Shown: positions 17,194-62,647 of the stretch, piece by piece
How the letters are laid out: every line of letters begins with the position of its first letter
Position numbering within the stretch: position 1 is the first letter of the stretch
Assembly: GCF_003073375.1 (NCBI RefSeq)
Contig: NZ_CP029002.1
Coordinates: 234,001-298,000 of the forward strand
Direction: 5' to 3'
DNA from: Lysinibacillus sp. 2017
GTDB lineage: Bacteria; Bacillota; Bacilli; Bacillales_A; Planococcaceae
DNA length: 64,000 nucleotides
The notes under the pieces: model-generated
What the model saw: the letters and a program-made list of their open reading frames with translations, nothing else
Told to the model about the DNA's origin: nothing
The model's database searches: none
Program-made: the position numbers and the translations under genes

Positions 17194-17380
17194 CTAAATG
17201 AGGTAGAGGTCGCAAACATTAAAAGTAATATAGCAGAGATGGAGAGCATCAGTGAAGCTATATGAAAGGAATGGTTGCCGAAGTGTTATTTTACTCATCT
17301 TAAAATAATGCTGGGGCTGTTTTCGATAAGGAACAGAACTGTCACATGTGTGAGCATGTGTTGAGCTATCTTTCGAGTTT
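17194..17380 (+). ncRNA. Lysine riboswitch (L box)
   Basis: Conserved L-box blocks occur in order: AGAGGTCGC (17205-17213), GAGATGG, TGAAAGG, TTGCCGAAG, TGCTGGGGCT, CTGTCAC and GAGCTATC, with P1 closing GGTAG (17202-17206) against CTATC (17366-17370). It senses lysine and controls the downstream lysine permease, a fitting substrate match. An intrinsic terminator follows at 17397-17426, so lysine should cause premature termination. The minus-strand open frame across it is a shadow. Confidence 0.94.
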
Positions 17381-19719: not shown

Positions 19720-19805
19720 AAGAATAATTTTATTATTCGGTGGTTATTGCAATTCGGGATTTACATGATTATAATTGTGACATTCACAGACTTAAATCAA
19801 ATAAC

Positions 19806-19880
19806 TTTACTCGTATAATAGCAGGAATAAGGCTTGCAAGTTTCTACCGATTTACCGTAAATAAATCGACTATGAGTGAA
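19806..19880 (+). ncRNA. Guanine-class purine riboswitch
   Basis: P1 is TTTACTC / GAGTGAA. The junctions TATAATA, AAGTTTCTACC and CGACTATG are canonical. The specificity base in CGACTATG is C, which selects guanine/hypoxanthine rather than adenine. GAGTGAAGCAAGT (19874-19886) can pair with ACTTGCTCCACTC in the terminator stem (12 of 13), giving a clear antiterminator switch controlling xpt-pbuX. The surrounding 19612-20061 gap holds only this leader and the PurR boxes. Confidence 0.96.
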
Positions 19881-19954
19881 GCAAGTTTAACTAATGATTT
19901 GTCCAATTATTTTTATATTTGAACTGACCATTTGTTATTACTTTTGAATTCACA

Positions 19955-24686: not shown

Positions 24687-24729
24687 TTAAATCACTCCTT
24701 CTATATATATGTATACCCAAATAGATATG

Positions 24730-24768
24730 AAAAAATGGCAAACCGTGTGAGTGGATTTGCCATTTTTT
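24730..24768 (-). terminator. Terminator of the candidate small RNA upstream of fumC
   Basis: Perfect AAAAAATGGCAAA / TTTGCCATTTTTT stem with a U-rich end on the minus strand; it is symmetrical and could act both ways. Confidence 0.85.
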
Positions 24769-24938
24769 CAGCAGAAGGGAAAAGATAGTTTCCATCTCTG
24801 CATAGAAAGTACACCATCTCGTCCTATTTTGCACGAAATATGTCTTTTTAATATGAATAAAGTAATTAATTAAGTCTCGAACCAGAACTGGGGGGAACGG
24901 TTTCGAAAGATTGTTAATAACTAAGATGACTGACTTAC
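24730..24938 (-). ncRNA. Candidate Fur-controlled C-rich small RNA (locus 1)
   Basis: Predicted transcript of about 209 nt from near 24938 down to the terminator at 24730-24768. A hairpin (24876-24907) pairs CGAACC with GGTTTCG and exposes CCCCCC in its loop (24890-24895 on the minus strand), complementary to Shine-Dalgarno sequences. A second stretch near 24785-24800 is CU-rich. No convincing protein frame. Design resembles FsrA-type iron-sparing RNAs and the locus at 51.8 kb. Function is inferred. Confidence 0.6.
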
Positions 24939-24945
24939 ATTGATA

Positions 24946-24974
24946 ATGATAATCTTTATCAATTAATAAGTCAA
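24946..24974 (-). promoter_or_regulatory. Sigma-A promoter with overlapping Fur box (small RNA locus 1)
   Basis: On the minus strand TTGACT (24969-24974), 17-bp spacer, TATCAT (24946-24951). TGATAATCTTTATCA (24947-24961) matches the Fur 7-1-7 consensus at 13 of 14 positions and covers the -10. The rest of the 24975-25066 gap shows nothing. Confidence 0.75.
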
Positions 24975-25066
24975 CAGAAAATTAAAAATTTATTAAGGAA
25001 ACACTTTTTGCTCCAAATGATGACTTTTTTCAAAAGTTCTATGCTCTTATTCATCTAAAAATAAAC

Positions 25067-37945: not shown

Positions 37946-38193
37946 AACACTCTCACAAAAATTGTGAGAGTGCCCATAAACCATTGCTGGTATGCGCTTT
38001 ATGTAATAAGCCACATTGCCGTAGTTATTATAGTAAGTTTTAAACCACCACTCCTCAAAGTGGGTGTTCGCAAAATTTTTCCTGCCTATCCCAAGGTCAA
38101 AAGAGCTCGGGCCCGTCATTCCAAATTCGATGTAAAACTCCCTATATAAGTATAAAGGTTAAAACTTAATATTCGTACGTACAACGTAGCCTT
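37946..38193 (-). ncRNA. Candidate structured leader RNA or small RNA upstream of the PfkB gene
   Basis: A promoter at 38200-38228 would give a roughly 245-nt minus-strand RNA ending in a perfect hairpin with a U7 tract. The region is more GC-rich than its surroundings and has internal pairings, for example ACACCCACT with AGTGGTGG near 38047-38070. It matches no riboswitch class I can identify; a 6S-like RNA is an alternative. The terminator lies 112 bp before the kinase start, so cis control is possible. Confidence 0.45.
37951..37974 (-). terminator. Terminator at the end of the PfkB leader RNA
   Basis: CACTCTCAC / GTGAGAGTG with a 6-7 base loop, followed on the minus strand by TTTTTTT. Confidence 0.9.
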
Positions 38194-38199
38194 ATCGTT

Positions 38200-50535: not shown

Positions 50536-51243
50536 CTATTTAATCGGACAAAAACCACAAGGCATTAACCCTGGAATATCCTTCGAGAAACAGCAACTCT
50601 TACGAACAGGTTGATTAATTAGTGCAGAAGGACTTTTCCCACCCGTATAATTTAAAAACAACGATTTATCCGAGAAATAGCGCCACACATTTTTATTTTC
50701 GAGCATCTCCAAATCTTCAAATGCGCGGTCAGCAAATGCTGGATTTTCGAGCAATGTATGATAATGCCATAGCATATAGCCGAAAATATTTTCCCATAGA
50801 GTAAGTGGAGAAATCGACGTCGTTTTCCGTAATTGTGTAATAACGACAGACGTTTTATATAAAATATCCGTCATGACTCGCTCGCGTTCATCATCTTCTA
50901 CATAGCGGAAATCATTCGGATTAATATACATGCCAAGCGTGTGGATTCCAAACTCTTGAATAATGGCAAAACGAATATCCTCCGGTCTACCATCCCAAAT
51001 TTCATCGTATGTTGTTAGCATATAAAACTGCATCGCTACGAACATGCCGTAACGACGACCAAAATGGGAAATCGCCGCTGCTTCCGTTGCAGCGTTTGTG
51101 ACACCCATCATTAAATTGCGAAAATCGGTTAAATAAAAATCTTTATGCAAATTCGCGAGCGTAAATAATGGACGCTCTGGTTCTTCCGTAAAAATACTAT
51201 AGGAATTTAATTGACGAACTTGATCATATGAAAGTGCAGGCAT
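50536..51243 (-). CDS. FhuF-like (2Fe-2S) ferric siderophore reductase
   Basis: 235 residues. The body is helical and poorly conserved, but the C-terminus holds CC-x10-C-x2-C (CCFSKDIPGLMPCGFC), the unusual 2Fe-2S motif of FhuF-type ferric-siderophore reductases, which release iron from imported ferrisiderophores in the cytoplasm. AAAAGGTG upstream of ATG 51243. A Fur-boxed small RNA lies 560 bp away, so the locus has an iron theme. No Fur box is visible directly upstream of this gene. Confidence 0.75.
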   Translation of the reverse strand: MPALSYDQVRQLNSYSIFTEEPERPLFTLANLHKDFYLTDFRNLMMGVTNAATEAAAISHFGRRYGMFVAMQFYMLTTYDEIWDGRPEDIRFAIIQEFGIHTLGMYINPNDFRYVEDDERERVMTDILYKTSVVITQLRKTTSISPLTLWENIFGYMLWHYHTLLENPAFADRAFEDLEMLENKNVWRYFSDKSLFLNYTGGKSPSALINQPVRKSCCFSKDIPGLMPCGFCPIK

Positions 51244-51357
51244 TACGATCACCTTTTCTATAAAAATAATTGTGTACCTTAACTATAACATTTCTCTATG
51301 CAAACGAGTGGAAAAACGCTAAAATGAACAAAACAGATAAGAAAGGTTGGTTTTAGT

Positions 51358-51786
51358 ATGGCAAATCCGATTTCCGTTCCGCGTCCACTTGTACGTGTGA
51401 ATCAATGGACGATTTTTATTTCCGTCACTTTAACGTGGATTACAGGGCATTACTGGATTTTAGCAATACCACTTGTTGCAAATCTATTAGGAATTTTCAC
51501 TGGCTTTAATCCCATTATGCGTTTTGCAAAATTATTTTTGAAAAAAGATATGAATGCTTATATTCCAGAAGATGTACAGCAACAAAAATTTAATGCTACC
51601 ATAGCATGCATTTGCTTAGCTGGTGGGTTAATCGGATTCGTCCTTGATAGTCCAGCTATTTATTATCCCTTTACAATTATGGTCGCAGTCGCTTCATTTG
51701 TAGCGATATTAGGGTTTTGTGTCGGCTGCTTTATTCATTTTCAATGGAAACAATTCATGTATCGACGGGCACTAAAAAATTCATAA
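51358..51786 (+). CDS. DUF4395 membrane protein
   Basis: 142 residues with four hydrophobic segments (about 15-32, 34-50, 79-98, 102-124). N-terminal SVPRPLVRVNQWTIF and the GFCVGCFIHFQW segment with two cysteines match the DUF4395 family, often found with sulfurtransferase or thioredoxin-like genes. Function unknown. Start ATG 51358 with AAAGGTTGG. Divergent from the FhuF-like gene. Confidence 0.75.
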   Translation: MANPISVPRPLVRVNQWTIFISVTLTWITGHYWILAIPLVANLLGIFTGFNPIMRFAKLFLKKDMNAYIPEDVQQQKFNATIACICLAGGLIGFVLDSPAIYYPFTIMVAVASFVAILGFCVGCFIHFQWKQFMYRRALKNS

Positions 51787-51802
51787 ATTTTTTGGAAAGT
51801 TA

Positions 51803-51831
51803 TTGACAATGATAGCGATAATCATTATCAT
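51803..51831 (+). promoter_or_regulatory. Consensus sigma-A promoter with overlapping Fur box (small RNA locus 2)
   Basis: TTGACA (51803-51808), 17-bp spacer, TATCAT (51826-51831). CGATAATCATTATCA (51816-51830) matches the Fur 7-1-7 consensus at 13 of 14 positions and covers the -10. Confidence 0.8.
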
Positions 51832-51837
51832 TTAATT

Positions 51838-52061
51838 CGTAGTAAGAGCTTATTTGTAATTCAGTACAAGTAAGGGGAGCTTAACAACCTTTTCTCCAGG
51901 AGTTTGTTAGCTCACACGGCGTTCTAAACCCCCTCATTTAGAATGTAAATTTGACTTGTAGGTCAGACAACAAGTTTTTCACCCTTTATATTTTTCTTCC
52001 AAGTTTTTCTTCCTTTTTGGAAGGACTGCTACCCGTATCTAACTGAGATGCGGGTGTTTTT
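51838..52061 (+). ncRNA. Candidate Fur-controlled C/U-rich small RNA (locus 2)
   Basis: Predicted RNA of about 220 nt. Three hairpins show pyrimidine-rich loops. 51877-51913 (GAGC-TAACAA / TTGTTAGCTC) has loop CCTTTTCTCCAGGAGT. 51922-51943 (TTCTAAA / TTTAGAA) has loop CCCCCTCA. 51996-52023 (CTTCCAA / TTGGAAG) has loop GTTTTTCTTCCTTT. These loops are complementary to Shine-Dalgarno-like GGAG/GAGGGG sequences. An intrinsic terminator ends it. No good protein frame. Proposed to repress iron-rich protein synthesis as FsrA does; inference. Confidence 0.7.
52031..52061 (+). terminator. Terminator of small RNA locus 2
   Basis: ACCCGTATCT / AGATGCGGGT (one G-U) with loop AACTG, followed by GTTTTT. 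Confidence 0.88.
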
Positions 52062-52070
52062 ATGCTATGA

Positions 52071-52107
52071 AAAGGTTTCGTCTCATGATTATGTAGACGA
52101 AACCTTT
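52071..52107 (-). terminator. Terminator of the DMT transporter gene
   Basis: AAAGGTTTCGTCT / AGACGAAACCTTT stem overlapping the stop codon of the minus-strand gene. Confidence 0.75.
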
Positions 52108-53048
52108 AGTTTTTTACTCATTAAACTGGTGTGATGGCTATGTAATAACATGCCAATGATGATGATGCCTAGCCCGACTAATGCCATTGGTTGTGGTAAA
52201 GCGACATTTAATAAAATCATTTCACCGATCATCGCAAATAATACTTCAGTTGACTGTGTTGCTTCGACTGCTGCAAGTTTACCTTGATCTGTTCGTACGC
52301 GGTCAGTTGCGATAAAAAAGAGTGTTGTTGCGATAACACCGGAAGACACCGCAACAAGTAGTGACTGAAATAGTTGGTTTGTTGATGGTAGTCCGACAGT
52401 CACTAAGGCATAAATTGCAAGTAGTATCCAAACAGGTAGGGAGGCGATGGTCATTCCAAGAACACGTTGAAATGGATCGACGCGCCCACCGCAAACTTCC
52501 ATTATTTTTCGATTGCCAAGTGGATAGGCAAATGCAGCAACGGCAACCGGTAAAATACCAAGCAACAAACTTCCTGTAGAAACGCTCTTCGCTTGTGGAA
52601 TTTGAATGAGTAAAATACCGACTAAAATAATGCCTGAAATCGCGAGTGAAATGAGTGGGACTTTCGCGCGTACCGGTTTTCCTGCAATGACTGTTATGAA
52701 TAAAGGCGCAAGGAGTACTCCTGCTACAATCGTAAATTGCCAAGTGCCAGAAACAAGCCAACCCGGCCCAAATGCTGCTGCAAATGTTAACGGTGCATAA
52801 AATAATACGAAGCCAACGAAGCTCCAAAGTAACCATAAATAAGGTTTAGCCTTCATTTCATTTGCCATATTACGAAAGCCGCCTTTTCCACGCATTGCCA
52901 CGATGATGATCAAAAAGGGCAACATAAAGAAGTAACGAAGAGAAGAACTCCAAAGCCAGCTGCCACCTTCTAATTCCATTGAATGATTTAAAACGAAGGT
53001 AACCGCGAAAAAAAGTGCGGCTAAAATACCAATACAAATCTCCTTCAT
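52089..53048 (-). CDS. DMT-superfamily exporter (multidrug resistance efflux/EmrE-like)
   Basis: 319 residues with ten predicted membrane segments in two EamA-like halves. KEICIGILAALFFAVTFVLN at the start and the LAAVEATQSTEVLFAMIGEM segment are typical of the DMT multidrug-resistance efflux group. Substrate unknown. AGGGGATGCGC upstream of ATG 53048. Single gene. Confidence 0.82.
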   Translation of the reverse strand: MKEICIGILAALFFAVTFVLNHSMELEGGSWLWSSSLRYFFMLPFLIIIVAMRGKGGFRNMANEMKAKPYLWLLWSFVGFVLFYAPLTFAAAFGPGWLVSGTWQFTIVAGVLLAPLFITVIAGKPVRAKVPLISLAISGIILVGILLIQIPQAKSVSTGSLLLGILPVAVAAFAYPLGNRKIMEVCGGRVDPFQRVLGMTIASLPVWILLAIYALVTVGLPSTNQLFQSLLVAVSSGVIATTLFFIATDRVRTDQGKLAAVEATQSTEVLFAMIGEMILLNVALPQPMALVGLGIIIIGMLLHSHHTSLMSKKLKVSST

Positions 53049-62530: not shown

Positions 62531-62647
62531 CTCTTATCAAGAGCGACTGAGGGAATAGGCCCTATGAAAGTCCGGCAACCAGTGAGTGATCAACTGACTA
62601 AGGTGCTACATCCTACAAAGTGCATTCTGCACTTTGAAAGATAAGAG
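62531..62647 (+). ncRNA. SAM-I (S-box) riboswitch
   Basis: P1 CTCTTATC (62531-62538) pairs with GATAAGAG (62640-62647). The conserved AAGAGCGACTGAGGGAA, GGCCCTATGAAAGTCCGGCAACC and AAGGTGCTACATCC blocks are present in order. The P1 3' strand AAGAGG can instead pair with CCTCTT of the following terminator, giving an S-adenosylmethionine-controlled termination switch for the metY-like gene. Confidence 0.97.

Follow-up and report, generated by a model that had tools for sequence, protein, structure and literature searches.

The window, as the whole stretch of 64,000 nucleotides analysed here is called, belongs to the 3.74-Mb, single-contig genome of a soil bacterium of the genus Solibacillus (family Caryophanaceae, order Caryophanales). 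Between the genes for a DUF4395 protein (51358..51786, plus strand; PF14340) and an EmrE-type transporter (52089..53048, minus strand; PF13536), no open reading frame of at least 60 aa is present (51786 to 52089), and the interval is occupied by a predicted non-coding transcript of about 220 nt (51838..52061, plus strand), recognised by promoter and terminator scans and by its fold, with the start at 51838 deduced from the -10 element. On the far side of the DUF4395 gene, an FhuF-like (siderophore-iron reductase) protein of 238 aa is encoded at 50536..51252 on the minus strand; its match to TIGR03951 (E 4e-12, 46.6 bits) lies below the cut-off of 63.85, and it has no Pfam match. The transcript is preceded by a sigma-A type promoter (51803..51831, plus strand), composed of TTGACA (51803-51808), a 17-nt spacer and TATCAT (51826-51831), which agrees with the consensus at 11 of 12 positions, and it closes with an intrinsic terminator (52030..52061, plus strand) found by both terminator scan and fold. 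A Fur box (51811..51829, plus strand) covers the spacer and the -10 element, with two mismatches on the minus strand and three on the plus strand to the classic Fur 19-mer, GATAATGATTATCATTATC. A sequence-only reading had described this promoter, a Fur box over its -10, about 220 nt free of a good protein frame and an intrinsic terminator, and each of these elements is present.

Taken by themselves, promoter-like and terminator-like sites occur there at chance level (four found against 3.3 expected and one against 0.9, respectively). Sites within three mismatches of the Fur 19-mer number only two in the entire window (four matches against 0.06 expected by chance). Among the relatives recovered by RNA models, a Fur match of at least 16 of 19 positions stands just upstream of the RNA in 73 of 76, compared with none of 1,520 controls (random 100-base stretches of the same loci), and TTGAC lies upstream in 75 of 76. 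The three without a Fur box are a third copy in one genome (L130 in G130) and one copy each of two tandem pairs (L131 and L132). Because it is both conserved and covarying, the Fur-boxed unit stands far beyond chance. This own Fur box also bears on whether the RNA might be no independent gene and merely extend the transcript of the DUF4395 gene upstream of it, as 3' untranslated region and terminator; the stop codon of that gene precedes the start of the promoter by 17 bases on the same strand. Such an extension is extremely improbable, given the retained Fur box and the presence of the DUF4395 gene in only 48 of 78 loci; it was not found beside L074-L079 and L081, nor beside dispersed copies such as L104-L107 and L110.

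Conservation was examined by DNA search and by RNA models, the E-values of which are rough. The DNA search located the unit in all 16 genus genomes examined; matches in G049, G017 and G052, as well as a second match in G005, comprised the promoter only and were rejected. A covariance-model search of related genomes, which had been proposed as a check, recovered the RNA widely. Among 261 family genomes representing 19 genera, model R1 (20 input sequences) detected it in 66 genomes and 10 genera at E 0.01, and model R3 (77 input matches) in 83 genomes and 13 genera at E 0.05. R3 added 17 genomes, 16 of which were scored for the Fur box, an element outside the R3 model, and all 16 carry a Fur match of 16-19 of 19 positions just upstream; the 17th, G086, was judged by eye only. 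Model R2, derived from 19 sequences of genus g14 alone, recovers the window copy with 48.2 bits (E 3.4e-8). When R2 was run over 398 Bacilli genomes, a size at which stricter filters lose weak matches, it returned seven matches, all within its own family and none outside, and the RNA therefore seems to be confined to the family. Additionally, a pattern for the H3 loop described below collected 28 stretches, six of which are relatives by eye (L037, L039, L043, L049, L055 and L056); the remaining 22 were judged by eye to be chance matches and set aside.

The fold of 51838-52062 reaches -68.5 kcal/mol, compared with -46.6 +/- 4.2 kcal/mol for shuffled sequences (z -5.2), and none of 200 shuffles was as low. 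In alignment A9, fitted with R2 (77 matches, 62 distinct), 28 of 37 pairs show compensatory two-sided change, and the covariation score is 0.394, against 0.032-0.069 when the partners are slid by one to three columns; since this alignment was fitted to the structure, it leans towards it. The unfitted MAFFT alignment A4 (20 sequences), from whose structure H2 was excluded because MAFFT misaligned it, gave a covariation score of 0.208 against 0.020-0.060. No shuffle matched this score, unlike the pair counts of A4, where 19 of 500 shuffles matched the number of two-sided changes and 320 of 500 the further pair types.

Hairpin H1 (51849..51874, plus strand; loop AUUCAG), which the sequence-only reading had missed, is part of the minimum-energy fold and belongs to the best-supported helices, with two-sided change at all 10 modelled pairs (helices 1 and 2). 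Hairpin H2 (51877..51913, plus strand), with the tip CUUUUCUCCAGGAG at 51889-51902, is seen in the minimum-energy fold and in covariation, two-sided changes affecting 8 of 10 pairs of the outer stem and 1 of 6 pairs of the inner tip. Hairpin H3 (51919..51946, plus strand) bears the loop CCCCCUCA (51929-51936) and shows two-sided change at 9 of 11 pairs (helices 5 and 6). The small hairpin H4 (51950..51967, plus strand; UUUGAC/GUCAGA) is paired across the genus, has no two-sided changes there and is missing from L028, L039 and L049. Loss of conservation of stems and loops among relatives had been named as grounds for abandoning the RNA; the stems and two loops are conserved.

These stems also bear on whether the unit might serve a small protein, as its short mRNA or leader. 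In G029, G032, L039 and L049, H2 is crossed by a 13-codon frame that ends in NFS(Y/C)FSPEV(C/R), and a similar 11-codon frame was recognised by eye in g14 sequences. The 13-codon frame is missing from the window and 15 other genus members, so that no frame is common to all, and the stems covary around a constant loop, which makes a small-protein gene very unlikely.

The earlier claim of three pyrimidine hairpin loops holds in part. The H3 loop is fully open in the ensemble. At H2, CUCC (51894-51897) alone is fully open; the UUUU and AGGAG on either side of it pair largely with each other. The third hairpin proposed (51996..52023, plus strand; loop GTTTTTCTTCCTTT) is present in the window's fold, and its loop string occurs in only 3 of 16 genus members. 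Just before this third loop string, a single-stranded UUUUUCACCCUUU / TTTTTCACCCTTT is found in 14 of 16 genus members, within a mostly single-stranded pyrimidine stretch, GUUUUUCACCCUUUAUAUUUUUCUUC (51974..51999, plus strand), which is a third candidate pairing region; ACCCUUU (ACCCTTT in DNA) is also found in L028, L039 and L049, and not in G029. In the g14 loci examined, which are part of the set, the third pyrimidine region is missing and the terminator follows directly after H3. The H2 tip contains CUUU(U)CUCCA, and the H3 loop C(4-6)U[CU][AG], in every one of the 76 R1 matches; exceptions appear among later, weaker matches, where the divergent copies L384 and L393 have CCCCCCAUA instead of C(n)U in H3. 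Thus two putative pairing loops, in place of the three anti-Shine-Dalgarno loops once claimed, are conserved across genera, and the third C-rich element, confined to some genera, occupies a different position and is predicted to be unpaired. The broader proposal, of a Fur-boxed non-coding RNA with C-rich loops of the anti-Shine-Dalgarno type, agrees with the Fur boxes, the covariation and the exposed loops.

The neighbourhood is shared as well. Of 78 loci, 69 encode a relative of the FhuF-like protein and 50 the EmrE-type transporter near the RNA, and 35 have all three neighbours; because the flanks are short (mostly 1.5-2 kb), these counts are lower bounds. Nine loci have none of the three and represent dispersed extra copies in g14 (L104-L107, L110, L122, L126, L127 and L130), with up to three copies per genome. 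L106 and L110 are near an ABC-type uptake operon that appears by eye to serve siderophore import, and L130 has no recognisable promoter. In genus g16, the RNA occurs as tandem pairs about 240 nt apart (L131, L132 and L397, in G030, G071 and G086), and in each pair the Fur box of one copy is degraded, as judged by score for L131 and L132 and by eye for L397. PrrF1/PrrF2 and RyhB are Fur-repressed iron-sparing sRNAs of Gram-negative bacteria that depend on Hfq, and PrrF1 and PrrF2 are themselves tandem copies, which the tandem RNA copies of g16 resemble.

The second Fur site of the window (24942-24960, minus strand) belongs to another unit at 24725-24990 on the minus strand, upstream of fumC, which encodes a class II fumarase (TIGR00979). 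This unit is laid out as TTGACT, the Fur box, a hairpin with the loop GTTCCCCCCAGTTC and a terminator, followed by fumC, and its fold has a z of -5.0. Twenty regions were fetched by guessed synteny; two contained fumC, and both have the unit, with identities of 84% over 141 nt in G011 and 74% over 114 nt in G003. The window, G011 and G003 share an identical loop, CGTTCCCCCCAGTTC. Elsewhere in the window, lysine, purine and SAM riboswitches and a 6S RNA reach Rfam gathering scores (17196-17376, 19791-19892, 62531-62647 and 38004-38195).

Candidate targets were sought at gene starts of the genome. GAGGGGG before start codons is not enriched genome-wide (51 against 46 for the reversed control), and a scan with GGAGAAAA returned 51 matches against 33 for its reversed control; after filtering, 26 gene starts remained from each scan. 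Pfam was run on 23 of the first set, and two encode iron-sulfur enzymes, the Rieske protein QcrA and the large subunit of glutamate synthase (GltB), both with GAGGGGG at their gene starts; among the seven scanned from the second set, no iron protein was recognised. At gltB, AAUGAGGGGG is present in all 14 Solibacillus genes and is an exact 10-base complement of each genome's own H3 loop, CCCCCUCAUU. The predicted duplex of gltB with the window's H3 loop, at -19.9 kcal/mol, beats all 48 gene starts of the window. One of 140 other starts in the same genome pairs better. Start sites for these backgrounds were picked by script, and since the 140 come partly from pattern-chosen regions, the 48 window starts are the only unbiased background. 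The same 10-base complement, as AATGAGGGGG, is seen at a protein start in L152 (1501-1530); the first 320 aa of that protein have no Pfam or NCBIfam match at E 1e-5.

Across the family, gltB was matched in 42 of 68 chosen genomes, and 37 of the 42 start regions were examined. Runs of at least five G are found at gltB in 22 of 29 carriers of the RNA (carriers as defined by R3) compared with one of eight non-carriers. Because the run is lacking in seven of the 29 gltB-bearing carriers examined and no gltB match at E 1e-20 was obtained in any of the 12 g14 genomes searched, gltB is not a universal target. For citB, 26 genomes were searched and 23 start regions examined (G018, G020 and G069 were left out); a run of five G is present in all 18 carriers against one of five non-carriers (G025), the other four having GGAGG-type sites. 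The predicted pairing of citB with H3 is of ordinary energy, as 12 of the 48 window starts pair as strongly, and runs of five G are common, occurring at 8 of those 48. At qcrA, a run of at least five G is found in 47 of 47 carriers and also in 14 of 16 non-carriers (63 of 66 matches examined), and is therefore unspecific. A run of six G precedes qcrA in 61 of 63 start regions (e.g. L264-L326), including genomes with no detected RNA copy. At leuC, GGUGAAAA against UUUUCACC represents a weak lead. Since the carriers are kin, the carrier and non-carrier counts are not independent; the evidence at gltB and citB is only suggestive of targeting.

The loops of a Fur-repressed structured RNA could also serve another role, such as protein binding, sponging of another RNA or pairing inside coding regions. 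In this direction point the invariance of the H2 tip beyond the open CUCC, its near-universal closing U-A/U-G pairs, as would be expected at a protein site, and the unenriched GAGGGGG sites. Such a role is nonetheless unlikely, as complementarity to Shine-Dalgarno sequences is shared by both conserved loops, and G runs at gltB and citB are associated with the RNA.

The locus is thus probably a gene for a trans-acting sRNA of about 220 nt, repressed by Fur and acting in an iron-sparing, anti-Shine-Dalgarno manner, which matches no Rfam family. Its conservation, Fur box, terminator, covarying structure, invariant loops and neighbourhood are supported by computation. From these we infer transcription, Fur repression, pairing, its targets and a translational effect, in the following way. 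When iron is scarce, iron-loaded Fur would be lost from the promoter and the RNA would be made. Its invariant pyrimidine elements, CUCC at the H2 tip (part of CUUUUCUCCA) and the CCCCC(C)U of the H3 loop, joined in Solibacillus by the single-stranded UUUUUCACCCUUU as a third pairing element, would then bind mRNAs encoding iron-rich enzymes at their G-rich Shine-Dalgarno regions, with gltB and citB as the best candidates and possibly qcrA and leuC. Pairing would block translation and thereby spare iron, in the style of FsrA and IsrR. A Fur-boxed, covarying RNA with fixed C-rich loops is a ready iron-sparing candidate with named targets in a family where none of 61 genomes searched reaches the cut-off of the FsrA model. 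Because the stems vary, the loops are fixed and one to three copies occur per genome, this RNA family would offer a natural test of how anti-Shine-Dalgarno targets are chosen, and of whether the ribosome sites of targets evolve alongside the sRNA.

No Rfam 15 family is reached at gathering score by the window's RNA, nor by eight relatives' loci searched at E 1, and lenient matches here, such as Ref84 (E 2.7), were far below cut-off and dismissed. Among the titles listed by a literature search in which most subscription journals lay outside coverage, none concerned such an RNA in these bacteria. The closest known systems are compared below.

FsrA of B. subtilis (RF02273) is, like the window's RNA, a Fur-repressed sRNA with a C-rich pairing region, and the Fur-controlled promoter that characterises FsrA has its counterpart here in the Fur box, recognised by sequence. 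The 83 positions of the FsrA model form a 5' hairpin and another at the 3' end, with a C-rich single-stranded segment between them. Reported targets of FsrA include citB, gltAB, sdhC, leuABCD and lutABC, according to PMC12871923 and PMC11257911. A weak off-locus match to the FsrA model in G064 (L031, 29 bits, E 0.0037) was set aside because its best Fur match is 9 of 19 positions immediately upstream and 13 of 19 in the locus as a whole.

IsrR of Staphylococcus was compared through its published description. As described in PMC9410917, it is Fur-repressed and conserved in its genus, has three stem-loops and a terminator with three C-rich regions, and binds the Shine-Dalgarno sites of mRNAs for iron-sulfur enzymes, gltB2 among them; PrrF1/PrrF2 and RyhB are named beside it there, and citB was later reported as an IsrR target in PMC11257911. 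Because IsrR shares three C-rich regions, the earlier claim that three anti-Shine-Dalgarno regions are unusual fails.

Whether the window's RNA might be truly homologous to FsrA or IsrR, though strongly diverged, and no independent family, was weighed. Control, loop chemistry and likely targets are all alike, and FsrA homologues are stated for Bacilli, Staphylococci and Listeria in PMC12871923. Against homology, the FsrA model (cut-off 80 bits) scored its B. subtilis control and, as noted, no family genome; even at E 10 it matches nothing in 51780-52080, and the R2 search of 398 Bacilli genomes gave no match outside the family. A hidden homologue is thus quite improbable, and a new family of Fur-repressed, iron-sparing, anti-Shine-Dalgarno sRNAs is the best reading, one that may represent a third independent iron-sparing solution among Firmicutes.

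A wider and more doubtful possibility is that FsrA and IsrR have been replaced, in Solibacillus and much of the family, by an unrelated Fur-repressed sRNA family of independent origin, with dispersed paralogues, tandem pairs bearing unequal Fur boxes, and a second Fur-boxed C-loop RNA upstream of fumC, and that the citB and gltB sites have shifted from GGAGG to G5-G6 together with the C-run of the sRNA. If true, replacement would make the co-evolution of an sRNA and its ribosome sites visible.

Compared with IsrR as far as its published description extends, the window's RNA likewise has several C-rich regions, multiple hairpins and a terminator. IsrR has two Fur boxes, whereas the window's RNA has one (51811-51829, at most three mismatches); H1 and H2 of IsrR show little covariation, whereas the helices here covary strongly; and the C-rich regions of IsrR lie in the loops of H1 and H2 and on the 5' side of H2, in contrast to the loops of H2 and H3 here. 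Most likely, then, the window's RNA would work like FsrA and IsrR, while by model it is not an FsrA.
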